A stretch of DNA of 30,190 nucleotides from a virus. The stretch lies in the IMG/VR virus record IMGVR_UViG_3300044302_000658, positions 1 through 30,190 of that record, one strand, 5' to 3'. The notes below the pieces were generated by a model, which saw only the letters and a list, made by a program, of their open reading frames with translations, did not search any database and was not told where the DNA came from. Positions 4,585 through 30,190 of this stretch are shown here, piece after piece; the stretch's first letter is position 1, and each line of letters opens with the position of its first letter. The translations under genes and the position numbers were made by a program.

Positions 4585-4782
4585 ATGAAAATAAAAGCAA
4601 AAATAGAAAAATTTGTAAATTTTAATGCTATGAATGTTCCATGCACAGGCTTAGAATTTAAACAATTAAGAGATGGTAAAACTATTGAAGTTTCTAATGA
4701 AGTAGCTGATAAATTATTAGCTAAAGGAATAGTTGAAAAAGTAAGTAATAAAAAATCTAAAAAAAGTAAGGAGAATAAATAA
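4585..4782 (+). CDS. Small Lys-rich protein of the tail module
   Basis: This is a 65-aa protein with a start after a GGGTAGGGG stretch. Residues 1-50 form a short beta/alpha unit with LRDGKTIEVSNEVADKLLAKGIVEKV, like the small domain proteins often found before tail tube genes, where a loop-strand-helix segment ends with 'LLAKGIV'. The last 15 residues are almost all Lys, Ser, Asn and Glu. The stop overlaps the start of the tail tube gene (TAATG), so the two are translationally coupled. I do not know its function; a small neck or tail-completion role is possible. Confidence 0.6.
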   Translation: MKIKAKIEKFVNFNAMNVPCTGLEFKQLRDGKTIEVSNEVADKLLAKGIVEKVSNKKSKKSKENK

Positions 4783-5873
4783 TGGCAATAGACCAAACAG
4801 TTATTCCTATAAGTAATGTAAAATTAGGTATAAAGCAAGAAACTACCTTTGGAACTTTGCTTGATAGTGATGGCACAAATTCACAAGCATTTAGGCAATT
4901 ACCTATGGTGCAAGTAACAAAACCTACATTTAATATTACTAGGGAATCAAGATTATTATCAGGCAGAGGAACAGTTAAAAATGCTGCTGATACTGTAATA
5001 ACAAATAAAAATGGAACAGTAACTTGTCCATTTGATTTTCTAGCTACACCTGAATTATTGTTAGAACATTTAGCTATGGTAACTAATACTTATGCAGCTC
5101 CAGGATCTAATAAATATGTTGTAGAAATAGATGGAACTAATAATGCTACAAGTATAGGTGGTACAATATCAAGTGGCATTCCACATACAGTAAATCTAGC
5201 TTACTATCCTGCTGCCTCACAAGGCATAACAATTCCAGGATGCACAGTATCTGATTTAACATTAGCATGTGATTATGGTGCAGATGGTGGGAATTTGAGA
5301 ATGAGTGGGAACTACTACTCAGGATTCTCTAATATATTTTCATCTTCAGGAACTGGCTGTTTGTTAGAAGATAATTATGATGGAACATGGGTAGAGCCTG
5401 ATGCAGGTGAATTTTTTAACATAGGGAATCTTGGTGCTAAATCACTTGAAATTGATGGTTCTTCACAAGATATTATATTAAAATCATTTAATTTAAATAT
5501 ATCTAATGGTGTTAATAGAGTTGGTTCTGATTCTAAGGGTGGTGCTGAGGCTTATGCCTTCCCTGAGTATGTAGCTACAGGAAACATTGTAGTTAAGTAT
5601 GATGGAGAAGCAGGATTATCTGCTGGTGAGAATGTTGTTCAATCATTTATAGATGGACAAACTTGCCTCTTAACATTACAGTTTGGAGATGCAACACCAT
5701 CAAGTACAGGTGAAATGATTATTTTAGCAGAAGTTCAATTTACAGGTGATCCTACTCAAGATATTAGTGAGAGTGGTATCTTTTGGAACATTCCTTTTGA
5801 GTGTGTTCAGAATAGTTCTGATGAAGCACTAGAAATATCTTTGTATAGTGATACTGCATTAGGCTCAATGTAA
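4782..5873 (+). CDS. Major tail tube protein
   Basis: This 363-aa protein begins MAIDQTVIPISNVKLGIKQE and continues with ETTFGTL, a start typical of tail tube proteins, where the first strand is followed by 'E.tfGt'. The rest is beta-rich with a central NYYSGF-type segment, and its size suits a tail tube subunit with an added surface domain. It sits between the tail terminator and the tail assembly chaperones, the usual place for the tube gene. It overlaps the upstream stop by TAATG. A shorter palindromic spacer separates it from the chaperone gene. Confidence 0.7.
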   Translation: MAIDQTVIPISNVKLGIKQETTFGTLLDSDGTNSQAFRQLPMVQVTKPTFNITRESRLLSGRGTVKNAADTVITNKNGTVTCPFDFLATPELLLEHLAMVTNTYAAPGSNKYVVEIDGTNNATSIGGTISSGIPHTVNLAYYPAASQGITIPGCTVSDLTLACDYGADGGNLRMSGNYYSGFSNIFSSSGTGCLLEDNYDGTWVEPDAGEFFNIGNLGAKSLEIDGSSQDIILKSFNLNISNGVNRVGSDSKGGAEAYAFPEYVATGNIVVKYDGEAGLSAGENVVQSFIDGQTCLLTLQFGDATPSSTGEMIILAEVQFTGDPTQDISESGIFWNIPFECVQNSSDEALEISLYSDTALGSM

Positions 5874-6581: not shown

Positions 6582-8255
6582 ATGGCTAATACATTTACAG
6601 AAAGAATAAAGCTGATATTAAGTGGTGCAAAGAAAGCCACTAGAGATGCTAAGAAATTTGAAACAGGACTGCAAAAAATACAAAAGGCAGCAGTTATGGC
6701 AGGTGGCTCATTCTTTGCTGCTCAAGGCATCATTCAAGGCTTTAAAAGAAGCATTGAGTTAGCAGGTAAGTTTGATAATGCTGCTTTAGGTTTTTCAAAA
6801 CTTACTAGCACAGTTGGTGGTTCTGCTGTTTCTATTAATAAATTAAGAGATGCAGTTGATGGTACTGTTAATGATATAGACCTAATGACTATGGCAAATA
6901 ATGCTTTAACACTAGGAGTTGCAGATTCTACAGAACAATTAGCTGAGATGTTTGATGGAGCACAAAGGCTAGGTAAGGTATTGGGCCTAGATACTAAAAA
7001 TGCTGTTAACTCACTTGTTACTGGTATGGGTAGGCAATCAAGACTTATGCTTGATAATTTGGGTATAATTGTAGATGCAGAAGTAGCCTATAGAAACTTT
7101 AAAGAAGAAATGGACATAGGAACTGCATCCTTAACTGAACAACAAAAGAAGCTAGCATTTAACAATGAAACAATTAGACAACTTACCAACGCTGTTAAAA
7201 CATTAGGTGAAGAAGAACTAACAATGGCAGAAAAGATAGCACAAGCTAATTCTAGTTGGGATAATTTCTTAACAGATGTAGGAGATGTTTTTAATCCATT
7301 CATTAATATAATTACAGGTGGTGTACAAGGCTTGAAAGATTTTGGATTATTAATGGACGACTTAGCAGATGCAGAAAAATTTGCACCTCTTGCAAGTAAT
7401 TTTCAAGAGGCTAAAACTGCACTAGCAGAGTTTATGCACGTCGCAGCAGACAATCATGATATTTTTGAGGGCATGATTAGTTCAGAAGAATTAGCATCTC
7501 TAACAACAGAGGAATTTACCAACAGAGCTATATTTTTTGGAAAAGAATTAGATAAGCTTGGTTTTTCAGCACTTGATACACAACTTGCATTTGGATTATA
7601 TTTTAAAGCACTTAAAGATAATATAGGCAATCAAGAAAAATCTGGTGAATTAATAGATAATCAGAATGTGCAACTAGAAAAACAAATGAATTTTATGATT
7701 CCTTTTATTGATTTAAATGGACAATTAGGCTCTCAAACTGATGCTCAGATAAAAAGAGAAAATGATTTATATAATATAGAACAAAAAAGACTACAAACAA
7801 GAAAAGACCAAATTGATATGGCAATGGCAATGGGTGCTGCTGAAGAAAATTTAGCTAATGCAGTATCAAAAGCATCTGCAACATATATAGCAGACCACAT
7901 TAGAAAGATTGTAGCTACATATATATTTGAAGCATTTAAAGGGCAGGGATTTTTAGCAGGTTTGGGAGCAGTTGCTACTGGCTCTGCATTTGGTAATCTT
8001 GTAGGTCAAACAATAAATTCAGTTGCAGCAGCAGAAGGATTTGATGGAGTAGTTACAGAGCCTACTTTATTCCTAGCAGGTGAACAGGGTGCAGAATATG
8101 TTGATATTGAGCCTACTACTAATGAAGGTGCAAACAGAGGTGGTTCTACTATTATCTTTCAAGGTAATGTAATGTCACAAGATTTTATTGAAGATGAGGC
8201 TATACCAATGATTAGAGAAGCATTAAGAAAGGGTGGAGATATAGGTATAGGTTAA
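6582..8255 (+). CDS. Tape measure protein
   Basis: This 557-aa protein is largely helical. It opens with a conserved-looking region typical of tape measures (TERIKLILSGAKKATRDAKKFETGL...), then an Ala/Gly-rich hydrophobic segment near residues 35-60. It continues with a region holding ALTLGVADSTEQLAEMFDGAQRLGKVLG, which resembles the amphipathic part of TP901-type tape measures. A second hydrophobic Gly/Ala segment lies near residues 470-500. At roughly 0.15 nm per residue the length predicts a tail of about 80 nm. It follows the frameshifted chaperones by one base, as expected, and overlaps the next tail gene (TAATG). The C-terminus has GAEYVDIEP, seen in many tape measures. Confidence 0.85.
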   Translation: MANTFTERIKLILSGAKKATRDAKKFETGLQKIQKAAVMAGGSFFAAQGIIQGFKRSIELAGKFDNAALGFSKLTSTVGGSAVSINKLRDAVDGTVNDIDLMTMANNALTLGVADSTEQLAEMFDGAQRLGKVLGLDTKNAVNSLVTGMGRQSRLMLDNLGIIVDAEVAYRNFKEEMDIGTASLTEQQKKLAFNNETIRQLTNAVKTLGEEELTMAEKIAQANSSWDNFLTDVGDVFNPFINIITGGVQGLKDFGLLMDDLADAEKFAPLASNFQEAKTALAEFMHVAADNHDIFEGMISSEELASLTTEEFTNRAIFFGKELDKLGFSALDTQLAFGLYFKALKDNIGNQEKSGELIDNQNVQLEKQMNFMIPFIDLNGQLGSQTDAQIKRENDLYNIEQKRLQTRKDQIDMAMAMGAAEENLANAVSKASATYIADHIRKIVATYIFEAFKGQGFLAGLGAVATGSAFGNLVGQTINSVAAAEGFDGVVTEPTLFLAGEQGAEYVDIEPTTNEGANRGGSTIIFQGNVMSQDFIEDEAIPMIREALRKGGDIGIG

Positions 8256-10051
8256 TGTTAGAAATACCACAAAAATTCCAAAATGATATACAGGGCAGAG
8301 ATTATAATCTGACACCACTTATAATTATAGATGATAGAATTTATTTATCTACAATGAAAGTAGAGCTGGAAAACATATATAGTCCTTTAGTTAAAAAGAT
8401 AGGTAGCATTAATCAAAGCATAGATTTAAACAAGAAGAATTTTAAAATATCTAATTTGAATATCAGTTTATATAATGCAGAATATAATGATAATTTACTA
8501 TCAGATCAGTTGTTTAATCCATCTGCTATTAATAAAAAAGTAGAAGTATATCACATGACACAGTCAGCAGAAAGCCTTGATGATTGTTTAAAAGTATATA
8601 CAGGACTATTAAAACAAGTAAAAGAAAAGGCAAATGATGTAAGCATATATCTTGAAGACCAAGCAGAAAAAACCCTGCACAAAAGCCTTCCTATTGAATA
8701 TGTAAGAGATGATGTTGAAGTACCTGATAGGTATAAGAATAAAAGGGTGCCTATGGTATATGGATATGTTGAAAATGCTCCATGTGTTTACCATAATATA
8801 TATCAATCAGCTTTTGAGAATGGAAGCACTAAGTATTCCATAACTCCTGATAGCTTTGCTATAAATTTAATTCAAAATCCTAAAGTATTTGATAATGATA
8901 TATATTTAAACATTAGACCACAATCTGTATTGTTTTCTCAAGAATCAGCAGGCACTTTATATGAATCTACTGAAAAAGACCAATTTTCTATTTTAAGTAA
9001 TATAATATTAGTTGATAAACAATTAAATGTAAACACAGAAGATGTTGGTAATATAAATAGTTATGATGGAACTCCTATGGCTTATAATATGGTAGAAATT
9101 ACACATAAATCCCCTGTTGTTTTTATAGGTGGAACTTATGATTTGCATTATACAGAATCAGGTCAATTAGGACAAAAGAGAAGTGCTAGTGTGCAGATGT
9201 TTCAAGATATTCATGGAAATACTCCATCTACAACAGTTAATGGATCCTATTTTGATGTAAAAGATTTTGGTGAAATTCCAGAAGTTATTGCTAACCCTGA
9301 ATATTGGTTGTTTGGTGGCAATACAGGTATAGATACAGCAAACTATGATAATATATATGGTGAAACCATTATGAATTTTGAAGCCACGCAGTTTGCATCA
9401 GAAAACAAAATAACAAAATCCCTCCCTATAAGTGATGATGAAGAAAAGGAAGTCAAGGGTTGGGTTAGGTTAAGTTTTTCTTTAGAGGCAGAGGTTTTGG
9501 GAATTGTTAATCCAGCCTACTTTTCTGATGAAAGCTATCCTCATTTATTTTTTAGATGGACAGATATAGGTGATCCTATTTGGAATGTTAATAGCAATGA
9601 TGATGATGGTGTAGGAATATTTAGAAAAAGTGGTGCTACAAGCCCTAATTTACAAACATCAGATTTGAGCAATAGAGTTTTCAGTATAACACAAAGAGAT
9701 TTAGATTTTGATTCAGGTGATTGGATTTTAGAGCCACAAAATGATGGATTTAAATACTTAAAGACAACTAGTCTAGAGGTAGAAAGATTTGCTATATTAG
9801 ATGATTTTATAAGTTATGATATTTATGCAGATGTGTATGGTAGAGTTGATAATGTTGATGGAACTTATACTGGAACTCAACAATATACATCAAGTCAGAG
9901 GCAAGATTATTTTGAAGGCAGGGTAGATACAGATATGCAAGTAGGTGCAACTGGCAGATTAATTAAAAGACCTGTTGCAAGGCAAATTGCAAAACCAACT
10001 AAAAGACCTACAACAAGAAAACAAAAAATTAAAACAAGGACTAAATATTAA
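8255..10051 (+). CDS. Distal tail / baseplate protein
   Basis: This 598-aa protein overlaps the tape measure stop. The N-terminal 150 residues contain TPLIIIDDRIYLST, SINQSIDLNKKNFKISNLNI and VYTGLLKQVKEKANDVSIYLED followed by KTLHKSLP. I associate this pattern with phage tail-tip proteins that carry a hub-like domain organising the baseplate. The middle is beta-rich and probably an insertion or carbohydrate-binding module. The last 40 residues are very basic (KRPVARQIAKPTKRPTTRKQK), which is unusual for a tail-tip protein. The position directly after the tape measure supports a distal tail role. The exact family is uncertain. Confidence 0.6.
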   Translation: MLEIPQKFQNDIQGRDYNLTPLIIIDDRIYLSTMKVELENIYSPLVKKIGSINQSIDLNKKNFKISNLNISLYNAEYNDNLLSDQLFNPSAINKKVEVYHMTQSAESLDDCLKVYTGLLKQVKEKANDVSIYLEDQAEKTLHKSLPIEYVRDDVEVPDRYKNKRVPMVYGYVENAPCVYHNIYQSAFENGSTKYSITPDSFAINLIQNPKVFDNDIYLNIRPQSVLFSQESAGTLYESTEKDQFSILSNIILVDKQLNVNTEDVGNINSYDGTPMAYNMVEITHKSPVVFIGGTYDLHYTESGQLGQKRSASVQMFQDIHGNTPSTTVNGSYFDVKDFGEIPEVIANPEYWLFGGNTGIDTANYDNIYGETIMNFEATQFASENKITKSLPISDDEEKEVKGWVRLSFSLEAEVLGIVNPAYFSDESYPHLFFRWTDIGDPIWNVNSNDDDGVGIFRKSGATSPNLQTSDLSNRVFSITQRDLDFDSGDWILEPQNDGFKYLKTTSLEVERFAILDDFISYDIYADVYGRVDNVDGTYTGTQQYTSSQRQDYFEGRVDTDMQVGATGRLIKRPVARQIAKPTKRPTTRKQKIKTRTKY

Positions 10052-12441
10052 TGGCTAGTTTAATTTGGGAAGGTGCAGGTTGGATAACAACAACAGAAAA
10101 CATGAAATTCAGGCTTAAAATGTCTGATGGCACTAATATGATAGATTCTGATGAAGGTGTTGATTTAATTAATATAGTAGAGCAACAAGATTTAAGCAAA
10201 TTGTACATAGGGCAGAATGGAGATTTTAAATATTGGTTAGGGCTAGGCTACCTTGATTATAATTATGATGAGATGTGGACTGCTGCTGAAGCATATTATT
10301 CAACTTTAAATTTTCAACCAAACAGGTTTGCAAGTTTAGGAGGAGGAGCAGGACTAGTTAATGCTTGGGGAATTAACCCTTCAGCAGGTGGCATTCCTTT
10401 TTATGGAGGTTTTTATCCAGCTGTAGATCCTATTGTTGTTGCTGATATATATTGGGAAGTAACCAATTATAGTTGTATTGTAGAATTAGAGGTGCAAGCT
10501 CATACAGACTATTGGGGAGATAATATAGTAGTTTATACACATAGTGGAAGTGATATGTTCCTACAAAACATAGGGTTAAGCATAAATCCTGAAGCACCAT
10601 TTGCTTCCTATGTAAGTCAAGGCACAAATGATACTGTGCCAAAAGAATGGGTAGATAATTATAATATATTAGTGGGCTTTGTGTTGACAATGGAAGGAGA
10701 ATCAACAGGCTCAAAGGATATTTGGGCAGCAGACAGGGCTACTGTAGATAGTGCAATAGCAGATGGCAGAATTGCTTTTGACCAGATGACAATTTCTGTT
10801 GCACCTGTTAGTTTTCAAGCTGATTCTTTGGATTATACTGTAAGCATTTTAAATCTAGGCAGACCTGAATTTGTAAATGAAGCACAGCAAGAGCCATTAG
10901 AATTACAGATAAAATCACAAGATTATAATGGTGAGATAAAAATTTATTTAGTAGATAATGAAAGTATATCAGAAGTCAATGAAGCTATTGGAGATGATTT
11001 AGCTGATTGGTATGGTGAAATAACTGAAGATGTTGTTGCTCAATATGGAACACTAGATTATGATGGACAAAAAATTATAACAGATAGCATAGTTGCAGGT
11101 GAAACCAAAGAATATGAAATAACCTATACAGCAGATAATGTAAATATTGGACAAACAGATAATATGTCTATTTTTATTAAATATAATAATCCTGACTTTA
11201 CAGCTTATGGAATACCTGAATCAGCAGCAGAATATCAATGGGAATTTATACAACCAAGTGGATATTTTACATATACAGATAATATTGAAATAGATATTAT
11301 AGACGTGATGGCAGAACACATTGAAATATATAATCCATCAGACATCTTAATAACACAACCTGCAGATATAATGCACCATATATTTGGTCAAGAACTAGGC
11401 TTTGATAAAAATAATATAGACACAACTTCTAAAACAAAGTCTAGGAGCCAACATTCTAACTTTGAAATGGCTTTTTCAGTTAATGAGAAAATAGATAGTA
11501 AGAAGCTAATACAAGAAATATCTCAATCTTGCAAATCATTGCCTATTTTAGTTAATGATAATTTAAAGTTTATAACTGTAAAAAATACATATACAGGTAC
11601 TGAAAATATATCAACTATAAAAGCAGATGATGTGTTTAATTATTCATTTTCAAGAACTTCAGTAGATGATATAGTTACCAAAGTAGAGGTAAAGTACAAC
11701 AAAGATTATGGGCTAGATACATACTTGGATTCTCATATAGCAGAAGCAAGATTACCATTCTACTATGAAAATGGGGATATACATGACAATAATAGGCAAG
11801 ATAATTACTACAATATAAAAATTAGTCCCATTGATGGTGAGCTAGATCATGTCAATAGCTTTTTAGATTTTGAATCTCCATATATAAGAGATTCATATTC
11901 AGCTAGTGTATTGGGAGATTATCTGTTTTACTGGAATGTCAATCAACACAATATAGTAGATTTAAAATTGCCTTTAAATTATTATGCTTTAGAGGTTGGT
12001 GATTTAATTGAATTTGATAAAATGATGTTAGGCAAAAAAGCCTATGGTGAAAAATATGTATTAGATGATTGGAAAGAAATGCCTGTAAGAGCAGGACAAT
12101 ATATCTTGCCTTTGTTTATGGTTACAGAAACTAAAAAAGGACTAGATTCTATAAAAATTAAAGCTATACAGTTACATCACATGGCTAATGATATGCTAAA
12201 CTATAAAGGAGAAACCTATTATTACATAGATTTGCTAGGAAGAACGCAGCAAAGTTTGCTAGGAAGTGGAGATGTTAATGAAGATGGACTTACTAATGTT
12301 ATGGACGTTGTTGCTATAGTACAGTCAATAATAGGTAATGCAACTCTAACAGATGAGCAATTTGAATTAGCTGATGTTAATTTTGATGGGCAGGTTAATA
12401 TTTTAGATACTATTATTATTGTAAACAGGATAGTAGGCTAA
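10051..12441 (+). CDS. Tail tip / central baseplate protein with C-terminal dockerin-like module
   Basis: This is the largest protein, 796 aa, overlapping the gene before it by TAATG. Residues 1-270 are aromatic-rich and may form a surface domain. Residues about 270-400 are beta-rich, with an Ig-like appearance. Residues about 420-710 look like a tail hub protein (SFSRTSVDDIVTKVEVKYN, LNYYALEVGDLIEFD). Residues 740-796 hold two dockerin-type repeats: DVNEDGLTNVMD (741-752) and DVNFDGQVNILD (775-786), each with D, N, D, N and D at the calcium-loop positions and followed by a hydrophobic helix. The domain order suggests a tail-tip protein that presents a calcium-binding module at its end. The dockerin call is strong from sequence; its role on a phage tail is inference. 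Confidence 0.7.
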   Translation: MASLIWEGAGWITTTENMKFRLKMSDGTNMIDSDEGVDLINIVEQQDLSKLYIGQNGDFKYWLGLGYLDYNYDEMWTAAEAYYSTLNFQPNRFASLGGGAGLVNAWGINPSAGGIPFYGGFYPAVDPIVVADIYWEVTNYSCIVELEVQAHTDYWGDNIVVYTHSGSDMFLQNIGLSINPEAPFASYVSQGTNDTVPKEWVDNYNILVGFVLTMEGESTGSKDIWAADRATVDSAIADGRIAFDQMTISVAPVSFQADSLDYTVSILNLGRPEFVNEAQQEPLELQIKSQDYNGEIKIYLVDNESISEVNEAIGDDLADWYGEITEDVVAQYGTLDYDGQKIITDSIVAGETKEYEITYTADNVNIGQTDNMSIFIKYNNPDFTAYGIPESAAEYQWEFIQPSGYFTYTDNIEIDIIDVMAEHIEIYNPSDILITQPADIMHHIFGQELGFDKNNIDTTSKTKSRSQHSNFEMAFSVNEKIDSKKLIQEISQSCKSLPILVNDNLKFITVKNTYTGTENISTIKADDVFNYSFSRTSVDDIVTKVEVKYNKDYGLDTYLDSHIAEARLPFYYENGDIHDNNRQDNYYNIKISPIDGELDHVNSFLDFESPYIRDSYSASVLGDYLFYWNVNQHNIVDLKLPLNYYALEVGDLIEFDKMMLGKKAYGEKYVLDDWKEMPVRAGQYILPLFMVTETKKGLDSIKIKAIQLHHMANDMLNYKGETYYYIDLLGRTQQSLLGSGDVNEDGLTNVMDVVAIVQSIIGNATLTDEQFELADVNFDGQVNILDTIIIVNRIVG
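12268..12438 (+). other. Dockerin-like double calcium-loop module
   Basis: This codes for residues 740-796 of the baseplate protein. Two copies of the D-x-N-x-D-G-x-x-N-x-x-D loop are each followed by a helix of Val, Ile and Ala residues (VVAIVQSIIG and TIIIVNRIVG). The two repeats are separated by a linker of about 11 residues. This is the arrangement of type I dockerin modules, which bind calcium and usually mediate protein-protein attachment through cohesins. Confidence 0.8.
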
Positions 12442-12872
12442 TGATAGATAAAATCAATACATTAGAAAAGCCTGTAGCATCACAAGGAACAATTAAATAT
12501 GGTGATGGCAATGTGTTTTTTGAAACCAATGGTGAGGTTGCTGCATTTGAAATTGATTATATAGGTGCTATTAAAGGCATTAAAAAGTTGGGAGAAGGTT
12601 GGATTATCAAAATAGGAAAAAGTAAAGCTGTGATATTCAGTATGGCTCAATCAGAGCTATCTGAATTATTATTTACTTATGTAGGTGAACTAGAAATAAC
12701 GAGGTGCAAGTATGTTACTTGGGATTTAAATGCACACCAAGCTAATATTGTTAATGTGTCTAGAGATACTTGGAACTCTAATTATGGTGAATTTCAATCA
12801 GATGCAAGAAAGCCTGAAGAAATAGTATCTAAAACAGTTATAGGAAGAAAAGTTAAAAAATCAAGTATTTAG
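12441..12872 (+). CDS. Tail-module protein, function unknown
   Basis: This 143-aa protein overlaps the baseplate gene by TAATG. It is mostly beta-strand with short turns (TIKYGDGNVFFETNGEVAAFEIDYIGA, then GWIIKIGKSKAVIFSM), then a helix (QSELSELLFTYVGEL) and a basic C-terminus. It has no signal peptide, membrane segment or catalytic motif. Its place between two structural genes of the tail block suggests a virion or assembly role. I do not recognise the family. Confidence 0.65.
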   Translation: MIDKINTLEKPVASQGTIKYGDGNVFFETNGEVAAFEIDYIGAIKGIKKLGEGWIIKIGKSKAVIFSMAQSELSELLFTYVGELEITRCKYVTWDLNAHQANIVNVSRDTWNSNYGEFQSDARKPEEIVSKTVIGRKVKKSSI

Positions 12873-12881
12873 GAGAAAAGA

Positions 12882-14093
12882 ATGGCTAGAAGAACTATAG
12901 GAAAACCAAGATTTTATTGTGATGTATTTAGTTATTTAAAAAGCATAGGTATGTATTATGGAACAAGCTCAAAAGGCTTAATATCTGTAAACAATCAAGA
13001 AAAACCTTATACAATGAATCCTTACCAACCCAATGATTTTGAGTTAGATTCAGGCGACCATAAAGCCTCATTTAGATTTTGGTTAGACCAAGAGCCTTTA
13101 GATGATTCAAACAACATAACATCTATAGACCAAGATGAGCTTGGAAAATTATTAGCATATCACAACCCTGTGGGAACTGAAGGAGAACACCATTCATCAG
13201 GCTGGTATGCAGGTATTCTAGGACATAATTTAGTTAGTTCAGGAGTTGAGGCAGTATTTCAAAGATTCTATGGAATGGGTGAAGATTCAAATGGTGATCC
13301 TGCTTTACAGTTTTCAAATCAAACTCACTTTAGGGAAATTATTAATTTTGAAGCTGCCACATTAATTGAAAGTGCAGGTGAGGCAGGAAAACCAAAATAT
13401 GATGGATTTTCTTTATGGGAAATAACATCTAAAAACTCAGGAAAAAACAGATTTTCAGTAGGAGAGTTTAAATTTGAAAATAATGATGCTACACAATATG
13501 TTAATTGGACTAATGGGGATTCTATTAAGATAGGTGCAGTTACTGCTGGAATATTTTTTGAGCCTGAATATGCTTTTGAACTACAAGCATCTGTGTCTAA
13601 TAATTTTGAAGGGATCAAGACACAAACAACTATAGGTGGGCATAGCATTACTAATATTAATTATTTAGGTGTTCCAAACTGGGGAGATCAACCAGCTTGG
13701 ACATTACAAAAAACAGATGGCAGAGATTACAGGCCTGTTGCCAACAGAGCTAGAAGGCAATGGAATGTTGGTTTAAGTTTTATAGCTGATGATAATATGT
13801 TTGACAAAGCAGGTAATGCTAACAAATTTTATAATGACAGTTTCACAGCTGATACAGAAGATGCTTACTCAGTAAATAATTTTGATACATCACTATCTTC
13901 ATTTTTTAAATTAACACATATGGGCAAATTGCCCTTTATATTCTGTCCTGATTCACAACCATTAGATGATAGTGGCAATATAGATAAAGATAAATTAGAG
14001 TTTGCAATATGTAGGATTACTAACAAACCTTCCTTCAAACAGGTTGCCAATAACCTGTTTTCAACCTCCCTTGTTCTGACAGAAACATGGTAA
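12882..14093 (+). CDS. Virion structural protein, last gene of the tail block
   Basis: This 403-aa protein starts after an AGGAGAAAAG site. It begins MARRTIGKPRFYCDVFSYLK and is aromatic-rich, with repeated Phe, Tyr and Trp positions, and ends in SFKQVANNLFSTSLVLTETW, a C-terminal strand and Trp that suggest a folded virion domain. No enzymatic motif is seen. I recognise the general type from marine siphovirus tail clusters but not its exact role; an upper baseplate or tail decoration role is possible. It closes the long late operon: a strong intrinsic terminator follows 27 bases after the stop. Confidence 0.6.
   Translation: MARRTIGKPRFYCDVFSYLKSIGMYYGTSSKGLISVNNQEKPYTMNPYQPNDFELDSGDHKASFRFWLDQEPLDDSNNITSIDQDELGKLLAYHNPVGTEGEHHSSGWYAGILGHNLVSSGVEAVFQRFYGMGEDSNGDPALQFSNQTHFREIINFEAATLIESAGEAGKPKYDGFSLWEITSKNSGKNRFSVGEFKFENNDATQYVNWTNGDSIKIGAVTAGIFFEPEYAFELQASVSNNFEGIKTQTTIGGHSITNINYLGVPNWGDQPAWTLQKTDGRDYRPVANRARRQWNVGLSFIADDNMFDKAGNANKFYNDSFTADTEDAYSVNNFDTSLSSFFKLTHMGKLPFIFCPDSQPLDDSGNIDKDKLEFAICRITNKPSFKQVANNLFSTSLVLTETW
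14037..14061 (+). terminator. Terminator-like hairpin inside the end of the preceding gene
   Basis: AAACAGGTT (14037-14045) and AACCTGTTT (14052-14060) form a 9-bp perfect stem with a GCCAAT loop, followed by one further T. It lies within the last 20 codons of the gene ending at 14093. The T-run is short, so it may be a weak terminator or a stabilising hairpin that supports the main terminator downstream. Confidence 0.35.
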
Positions 14094-16040: not shown

Positions 16041-16532
16041 ATGAATCAAGCACTTGAAAGAAGAAAGGCTTATGGACATTTAGGTGAGATTGAGTTTGAG
16101 AAGTTCTGCAAAAGACATCATATATGGTACAAGCAGTATGGCATATCTAAAGAAGAAGGCTTTGCTATGGGTGATTTGTTTTTTAAGCTGCCTAAGTTAA
16201 TACAGGCATCACCTGATTTTATGATGGTAAATAAGGACTTTCACTTTGTAGAATGTAAAGTAGCTGATAAAGAAACTGGGGATCATGTCAAGATTAAAGA
16301 ATATGATTTAAAATATTATCAACAATATCATAGTTTAGCAGAAAGTAAAGGTGGTAGCTTATTGTTTCACATTCATAGTCCTCAATACAAAGAATCTTAT
16401 TTAGTAGAGATGCACTATATAAGAAACTTATTTGAAAATGGTGATTTAGAAACTGGGCATTATCCTGAAAACCATAAAGAGTTTTATAAAGTACCTATGG
16501 AAGATATAAGAAGGTTTGGTACAAGAGTATGA
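16041..16532 (+). CDS. PD-(D/E)XK family nuclease
   Basis: This 163-aa protein shows PD at residues 58-59 and E-C-K at 71-73 in FHFVECKVADK, an E-x-K on the second strand. This arrangement (PD, a short gap, then ExK) is the core of PD-(D/E)XK endonucleases. An N-terminal helix with Glu (GHLGEIEFEKFC) is also typical. It could be a recombination nuclease or a Holliday-junction-type resolvase; it follows the annealing protein and precedes methyltransferases. The stop overlaps the next start as ATGA. Confidence 0.6.
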   Translation: MNQALERRKAYGHLGEIEFEKFCKRHHIWYKQYGISKEEGFAMGDLFFKLPKLIQASPDFMMVNKDFHFVECKVADKETGDHVKIKEYDLKYYQQYHSLAESKGGSLLFHIHSPQYKESYLVEMHYIRNLFENGDLETGHYPENHKEFYKVPMEDIRRFGTRV

Positions 16533-16985
16533 GTAAAGAGCAATCAAGTTTTTGGAGTGAAGATAAAGCATATAGCTCTAGAACTGAGGAATGGGGAACA
16601 CCACAAGACTTATTTGATAAACTAAATGATGAGTTTGATTTTACACTTGATCCATGTGCTAATGATGAAAATCATAAGTGTGATAAGTATTATACTATAG
16701 AAGATAATGGATTAAAGCAAGATTGGGGGGGGGCAGACAGTTTTTATGAATCCACCTTATGGTAGAGAAATAAAATACTGGGTTAGAAAAGCCTATAAAG
16801 AATCATTAAAAGGTGCTGTTGTGGTTTGCTTGATACCTGCAAGAACTGATACTATTTACTGGCATGATTATATTTTTCCTTATGCTAAAGATATTAGGTT
16901 TTTAAAAGGCAGGTTGAGGTTTGTAAAAGGAAATAAGATTGGTGATGCTGCACCCTTTCCATCAGCAGTTGTAATATTTAAATAA
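16529..16985 (+). CDS. dam: Phage Dam-type N6-adenine methyltransferase, split by a frameshift at G9
   Basis: Two frames, 16529-16765 and 16746-16985, together cover one protein of the phage Dam (PF05869-type) family. The first half has EWGTPQDLFDKLNDEFDFTLD and PCANDENHKCDKYYTIEDNGL, and the second has the catalytic NPPY tetrad and PARTDTIYWHDYIFP, FLKGRLRF and APFPSAVVIF. With nine G (16725-16733) the first frame ends early; with eight G it reads WGGQTVFMNPPYG and gives a 151-aa product. The frame error is +1, so the gene is off in this sequence unless corrected or phase-switched. An internal ATG at 16746 could restart translation just at the NPPY motif, but would lack the N-terminal half. 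Confidence 0.85.
16725..16733 (+). repeat. G9 homopolymer at the methyltransferase frameshift
   Basis: Nine consecutive G in an AT-rich genome, exactly at the break of the Dam-type methyltransferase. Eight or eleven G would restore the frame. Such tracts change length by slippage; this is the candidate switch, or alternatively a sequencing error. Confidence 0.85.
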
Positions 16986-29656: not shown

Positions 29657-30190
29657 AATCAATAGAAATACAAAATCTAGACCAGCATTTAAAACCACTT
29701 CAAGTTGATGGTGTATCTACTGGTCTAGAATTATCTACTGAAGGATTCAGAGTATCATCAGGTCAACTTGAGATTAAAAATCTAACATCTGAAACAGCTA
29801 AAGTTAATGGTGATATAACTGTTGATGGCAATATTGAGATGACAGGCTCAAGTGGAACAAAAATTAATATGTATAATGATGTATATTTAGAAGCTACTTC
29901 TAATAATGATTATTTAAACATTAGTGCTAAAAACATACTGCTTGATGCTTCAAGTAATTATGTTAATTCAGATGCAGGTATTTTTATTACAGCAGATAGT
30001 GGATATGATACAAAAATAGTTTTTATGGAAGGAGCAAGTACAAATTGGTCTATAGGCAATGATGGAGGAGAATCTACAAGCACTCTTTCTTTTTCATCAG
30101 GTCCTACTTTAGGAACTAATGAGCAAATGTCTTTAGATGCTGATGGGAACACCAAGCAAGAAGGAAGTGTTGTTATAAAAGAAAAAGTCC
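29653..30190 (+). CDS. Tail fibre / virion surface protein, N-terminal part (continues at 1)
   Basis: The start at ATG 29653 overlaps the preceding stop (ATGA). It begins MKSIEIQNLDQHLKPLQVDG and continues with repeated polar beta segments on INMYNDVYLEA, NISAKNILLDAS and SDAGIFITADSG, a layered structure typical of fibre shafts. The frame is open to the end of the window and continues at base 3 through the circular join, giving 358 aa in all. The last three bases of the window differ from the left copy of the repeat and do not alter this. Confidence 0.78.
   Translation, partial: MKSIEIQNLDQHLKPLQVDGVSTGLELSTEGFRVSSGQLEIKNLTSETAKVNGDITVDGNIEMTGSSGTKINMYNDVYLEATSNNDYLNISAKNILLDASSNYVNSDAGIFITADSGYDTKIVFMEGASTNWSIGNDGGESTSTLSFSSGPTLGTNEQMSLDADGNTKQEGSVVIKEKV
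30062..30187. repeat. Right copy of the terminal direct repeat
   Basis: This is identical to 1-126. The unit length from copy to copy is 30,061 bp. The trailing tcc differs from the cat at 127-129 of the left copy and may be an end-of-assembly error. Confidence 0.97.

Follow-up and report, generated by a model that had tools for sequence, protein, structure and literature searches.

The window, the whole 30,190-base virus record analysed here, carries the same 126 bases at positions 1-126 and 30062-30187, which suggests a probably complete genome of ~30.06 kb, circular or circularly permuted, despite its classification as linear. Its tail genes, all on the plus strand, encode a tail tube protein (4782-5873; Pfam Phage_tube_2, E 2e-9), a tape measure protein (6582-8255; phrog_3779, E 2e-9), a 598-residue tail-tip protein in a gpL-like position (8255-10051), a 796-residue tail-tip hub protein with a C-terminal dockerin (10051-12441), a 143-residue protein (12441-12872) and a 403-residue conserved tail protein (12882-14093). 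The order tape measure, gene 8255 and hub is shared by the relatives. The record also contains a terminase gene. The large terminase ORF at 20818-21753 matches only positions 357-595 of the 807 in phrog_2, that is, the C-terminal part, and the ATPase half may lie upstream in another frame or be missing. At 16529-16985, two short overlapping ORFs resemble pieces of one DNA methyltransferase; a single 221-residue ORF occupies the corresponding place in the relative L007 (16549-17214), and the copy in the window may be broken.

The hub ORF terminates in ...GSGDVNEDGLTNVMDVVAIVQSIIGNATLTDEQFELADVNFDGQVNILDTIIIVNRIVG. This end holds two calcium loops, each with the complete ligand pattern D, N, D, N, D, as the initial annotation of this DNA had described, and lies within the ORF limits that it had given. 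Loop 1 covers residues 741-752 (12271-12306, DVNEDGLTNVMD) with the ligands D741, N743, D745, N749 and D752; loop 2 covers residues 775-786 (12373-12408, DVNFDGQVNILD) with D775, N777, D779, N783 and D786, the same ligand pattern recurring across relatives. A profile search and a structure prediction, both suggested in that annotation, agree with its assignment. The Pfam model Dockerin_1 (PF00404) matches residues 740-794 (12268-12432) over model positions 2-56 of 57 with 36.6 bits (E 5e-9), the gathering cut-off being 22.9 bits, and this hub C-end is its only match in the window genome. By sequence, the nearest solved chains are the clostridial dockerins 1ohz and 2ccl.

The hub protein was modelled with AlphaFold2 from an alignment of 50 sequences (mean pLDDT 88, pTM 0.47), which was used instead of an earlier model from 16 sequences that was poor in the hub (pLDDT 65.6). 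The best PDB fold matches of the 796-residue protein are the tail-tip hubs of T1, lambda, Sf11, Chi, JBD30, T5 and GTA. In the predicted model, residues 424-714 (11320-12192) align with tail-tip hubs at Z scores of 11-17 (VIA-align), including 17.0 for Chi (8vjh_A), 16.8 for JBD30 (8rk3_b), 16.8 for lambda (8xcg_F) and 15.2 for T1 (9l9p_S). Its predicted fold makes this protein a tail-tip hub of the lambda gpJ type; the location at the tail tip in the initial annotation is retained, and its term 'baseplate protein' becomes more exact. The hub domains are followed by a linker (residues 717-737, 12199-12261) that varies in length between relatives and has a pLDDT below 50 at residues 733-735, and beyond it the dockerin is predicted as a separate domain. 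Residues 736-796 of the model superpose on the Clostridium thermocellum dockerin 2ccl_B with an rmsd of 1.0 Å over 60 residues (Z 12.1, VIA-align) and on the double-dockerin 8x39_A with an rmsd of 0.8 Å. Taken together, the profile match and the predicted structure identify a type I dockerin fold, flexibly linked to the C-end of a gpJ-type hub. The dockerin is probably exposed, since it forms a separate domain, its linker is flexible and it occupies the C-terminus, from which lambda gpJ extends further in the distal direction.

Beyond its hub domains, lambda gpJ continues with FNIII domains, then a helical shaft and a straight fibre, and finishes in a receptor-binding end (PMC11101478). Because residues 424-714 correspond to the gpJ-type hub and the dockerin comes next, the model puts the dockerin in the post-hub place where lambda has its central fibre and receptor-binding end; unlike lambda gpJ, the chain ends in the dockerin and in none of those parts. 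The hub gp25 of the Alishewanella phage LSH1 is similar in layout, as it is a short siphophage hub whose same exit runs straight into a C-terminal module, an antireceptor domain (PMC13243795); that module, however, resembles the S16 long-fibre antireceptor, whereas that of the window is a dockerin.

The dockerin is a constant feature of the relatives of this hub. It is kept in all close relatives (59-100% identity), and a full-length profile search returned 47 loci in which all 41 hubs with a complete C-end carry it, at most five residues from the stop. A second search used a profile of the hub core without any dockerin, chosen to avoid bias, and found the module in 71 of 71 complete hubs. It is in frame in 70 of these and downstream of a frameshift in one (L159); in most, no more than 10 residues separate the end of the module from the C-terminus. 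The 71 include about 42 non-redundant hubs and, sharing ancestry, do not count as independent events. The hub cores of the carriers diverge to ~28% identity, and replacement of the dockerin by another module was seen in none of the 71. The hub of L026 (5668-8274) has its dockerin within an N-terminal insertion, at residues 111-177, and none at the C-end. The view that chance is an unlikely source of the loops is borne out by the PF00404 score and by the fact that all complete relatives conserve the module; a chance match, a frameshift artefact and contamination were ruled out, the module being in frame in independent contigs with a conserved tail gene order. Every complete relative found keeps the dockerin, so that this tail type probably has it as a regular docking component and not by accident. 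No relatives of the hub were found among the cultured phages of the collection, where the only matches, in unannotated faecal scaffolds, were at the level of the dockerin.

Other parts of the chain are more variable. The linker measures 18-32 residues in the group of the window and 141-177 residues, plus an extra domain, in distant relatives. That this extra domain is a copy of the N-terminal domain of the window hub was considered and is not supported. In these distant relatives, phmmer also revealed a single fused protein made of the N-terminal ~180-220 residues of gene 8255, the hub core and the dockerin, indicating that the window phage has a split version. A hub mosaic was seen between L006 (5223-7625) and L008 (8202-10562), whose identity is 56% over the N-terminal 399 residues but rises to 93% in the core, with 92% in the dockerin; on the alignment, this step is read as a recombination boundary.

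We then compared 60 distinct dockerins at the ligand positions 1, 3, 5, 9 and 12 of each ~22-residue calcium-loop/helix repeat. In loop 1, these are D in 60, N in 51 or T in 9, D in 59, N/D in 59 and D in 60; in loop 2, D in 60, N in 54, D in 59, N/D in 60 and D in 60. Given such invariant ligands, two calcium ions most likely stabilise the two loop-helix units. In clostridial dockerins, a Ser-Thr pair at positions 10 and 11 contacts the cohesin. The window has Val-Met and Ile-Leu there, not Ser-Thr, when aligned to 1ohz and 2ccl. Across the 60 dockerins, position 10 is Ile/Val in 58 for both repeats, position 11 is Leu in 50 and 44, respectively, and Val is dominant at position 14. Between close relatives, omega is mostly 0.3-1.0 in the dockerin versus 0.07-0.39 in the hub core (NG86, rough values from short stretches), and the dockerin value is below 1 in nearly all comparisons. 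The pattern describes a module that retains its fold and one face while other surface positions drift.

The two genes downstream of the hub behave differently. Synteny marks the 143-residue protein (12441-12872) as an obligate neighbour and a candidate dockerin partner: of 81 relatives, 80 have its gene directly after the hub (spacing -44 to +18 nt), with the frameshifted L159 as the exception, and when it was searched alone, all 61 copies lay directly downstream of a dockerin hub. Its sequence pattern is reminiscent of a cohesin, yet this assignment was rejected, as the protein gave no match in Pfam or the PDB and hhalign probabilities of only 0.1-0.2 against six type I cohesins. A cohesin-like consensus retrieved no relatives, and a clostridial cohesin used as a query against plasmids found none. 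In L092 (6341-6886) and other distant relatives, the post-hub protein has a Ser/Gly-rich tail ending in Gly-Gly-Tyr that is absent from the group of the window. The 403-residue protein (12882-14093), a candidate fibre or host-range protein present in 74 loci, has two conserved ends and a swapped middle in alignments. Between the window and L002 it is 52% identical where the hub is 89% identical, and between the window and L018 the values are 63% and 36%. It is likely a host-range protein by its alignment, and this swapping makes it a better candidate for host specificity than the dockerin.

We tentatively favour, at a little under an even chance, a reading in which the dockerin serves as a docking joint within the tail tip and is stabilised by calcium. 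The module would act as a protein-docking plug on a flexible linker at the hub C-end, and should the hub be trimeric, like that of lambda, it would carry three plugs beneath it. The likeliest partner would be another tail-tip part, with protein 12441 as the lead candidate, which could bridge the hub and the tail-tip protein or fibre that comes next (12882-14093). Several results suggest a constant partner: the presence of the dockerin throughout the complete relatives without replacement, the conservation of positions 10-11 and 14 across hubs that differ so widely, the attachment of gene 12441 to dockerin hubs in both searches, and host-range swapping in the neighbour 12882 instead of the dockerin. 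Dockerin distances corrected for the hub core, a weak signal, track gene 12441 slightly more (0.23) than other tail genes (0.11 and 0.15). That L026 keeps the dockerin even though it has moved within the chain is expected of a binding module. The initial annotation had offered binding to another fibre as one role; the complete retention and the position of 12441 favour this in modified form, with a partner inside the virion.

Other results count against a virion partner. No relationship of protein 12441 to cellulosomal cohesins, to any Pfam family or to a solved structure could be detected, and the faster evolution of the dockerin than of the hub core also fits a host-facing module. Core tail genes in general are expected to show obligate synteny, so that of 12441 does not in itself show binding. 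A more specific version, in which 12441 would be a strongly diverged cohesin-like beta-sandwich and would form with the hub dockerin the two halves of a calcium-dependent lock, seems unlikely to us; if true, it would mean that a cohesin-dockerin-type joint is employed in building a virus tail tip.

A somewhat less probable but serious possibility is that the dockerin is the receptor-binding end of the tail and docks, with the help of calcium, into a host surface protein of the cohesin type or with another beta-sandwich fold. At its place in the chain, lambda gpJ passes into the central fibre and the domain that binds the receptor (PMC11101478), and the LSH1 hub has its antireceptor domain (PMC13243795); the dockerin is exposed beyond a flexible linker in the predicted model, and it evolves faster than the hub core. 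Dockerins on a protease and on endolysins of other phage-like contigs from the same collection also hint that such modules are useful in these hosts. Receptor-binding ends, however, are usually swapped between relatives, and none of the 71 dockerins is. The positions equivalent to cohesin contacts are conserved, not diversified, and hydrophobic residues replace the cellulosomal Ser-Thr recognition pair. No relative of the hub was found in 84,980 prokaryotic genomes with two different alignments. The cohesin search envisaged in the initial annotation was run on the phage side, where none (PF00963) scored above the cut-off in 33 phage records. The dockerin is never exchanged for another module, and the face that probably makes the contacts is retained; on these grounds we give a modest preference to a partner in the virion over a receptor on the host.

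The dockerins of a hub trimer might instead pack on one another or on the hub as a calcium-stabilised cap that stiffens or closes the tip without a separate partner. The nearly invariant calcium ligands and the universal presence of the module, like that of a structural part, would agree with this, but linkers ranging from 18 to ~177 residues, the relocation of the module within the chain in L026 and a model without confident packing (low linker pLDDT and pTM) make it improbable; closure of the tip by calcium, another suggestion of the initial annotation, became less likely once a dockerin was found in an N-terminal hub insertion and not at the C-end. Neutral or decorative acquisition from a host, with no role in the particle, is very hard to credit: many secreted proteins of prokaryotes carry dockerins, yet this one is kept in every complete relative, with ligands invariant over deep divergence and omega below 1 almost throughout.

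The module resembles the clostridial type I dockerins (PF00404; for example C. thermocellum xylanase Y, PDB 1ohz and 2ccl) in its two D-x-N-x-D...N..D loops, its three-helix fold and its C-terminal position after a linker. It differs from them in that its carrier is a phage tail hub and not an enzyme, in the substitution of Val-Met and Ile-Leu for Ser-Thr, and in having no known cohesin partner. The hub itself shares its domains at residues 424-714 and its gene order after the tape measure with lambda gpJ, T1, Chi, JBD30 and T5 pb3; in comparison with lambda-type hubs, the window encodes the gpL-like part in a gene of its own, and distant relatives have it fused. The modules in which tail-tip hubs end are of many kinds. 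The literature searched, which did not include subscription papers or preprints, yielded no dockerin in that place. Dockerins and such hubs are known separately; their combination at a siphophage tail tip, fixed across an uncultured group, is apparently unreported, which is not proof of novelty. If a widespread group of uncultured siphophages relies on such a joint, this would represent a new mode of tail-tip assembly or of attachment to the host surface. Should the attachment reading be true, the dockerin could reveal host surface chemistry, and both readings allow a simple calcium-dependent binding test.

Dockerins were also seen in other proteins of phage-like contigs. In L024 (106-1272), L047 (5074-6411) and L052 (5122-6426), a secreted, lipoprotein-like serine protease of the trypsin type carries a dockerin near its C-end and adjoins clamp-loader-like genes; a dockerin-bearing secreted enzyme is unusual in a virus. 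In the endolysins of L027 (5323-6351, phrog_291) and L041 (2182-3219), the dockerin lies between the catalytic part and a LysM-like end.
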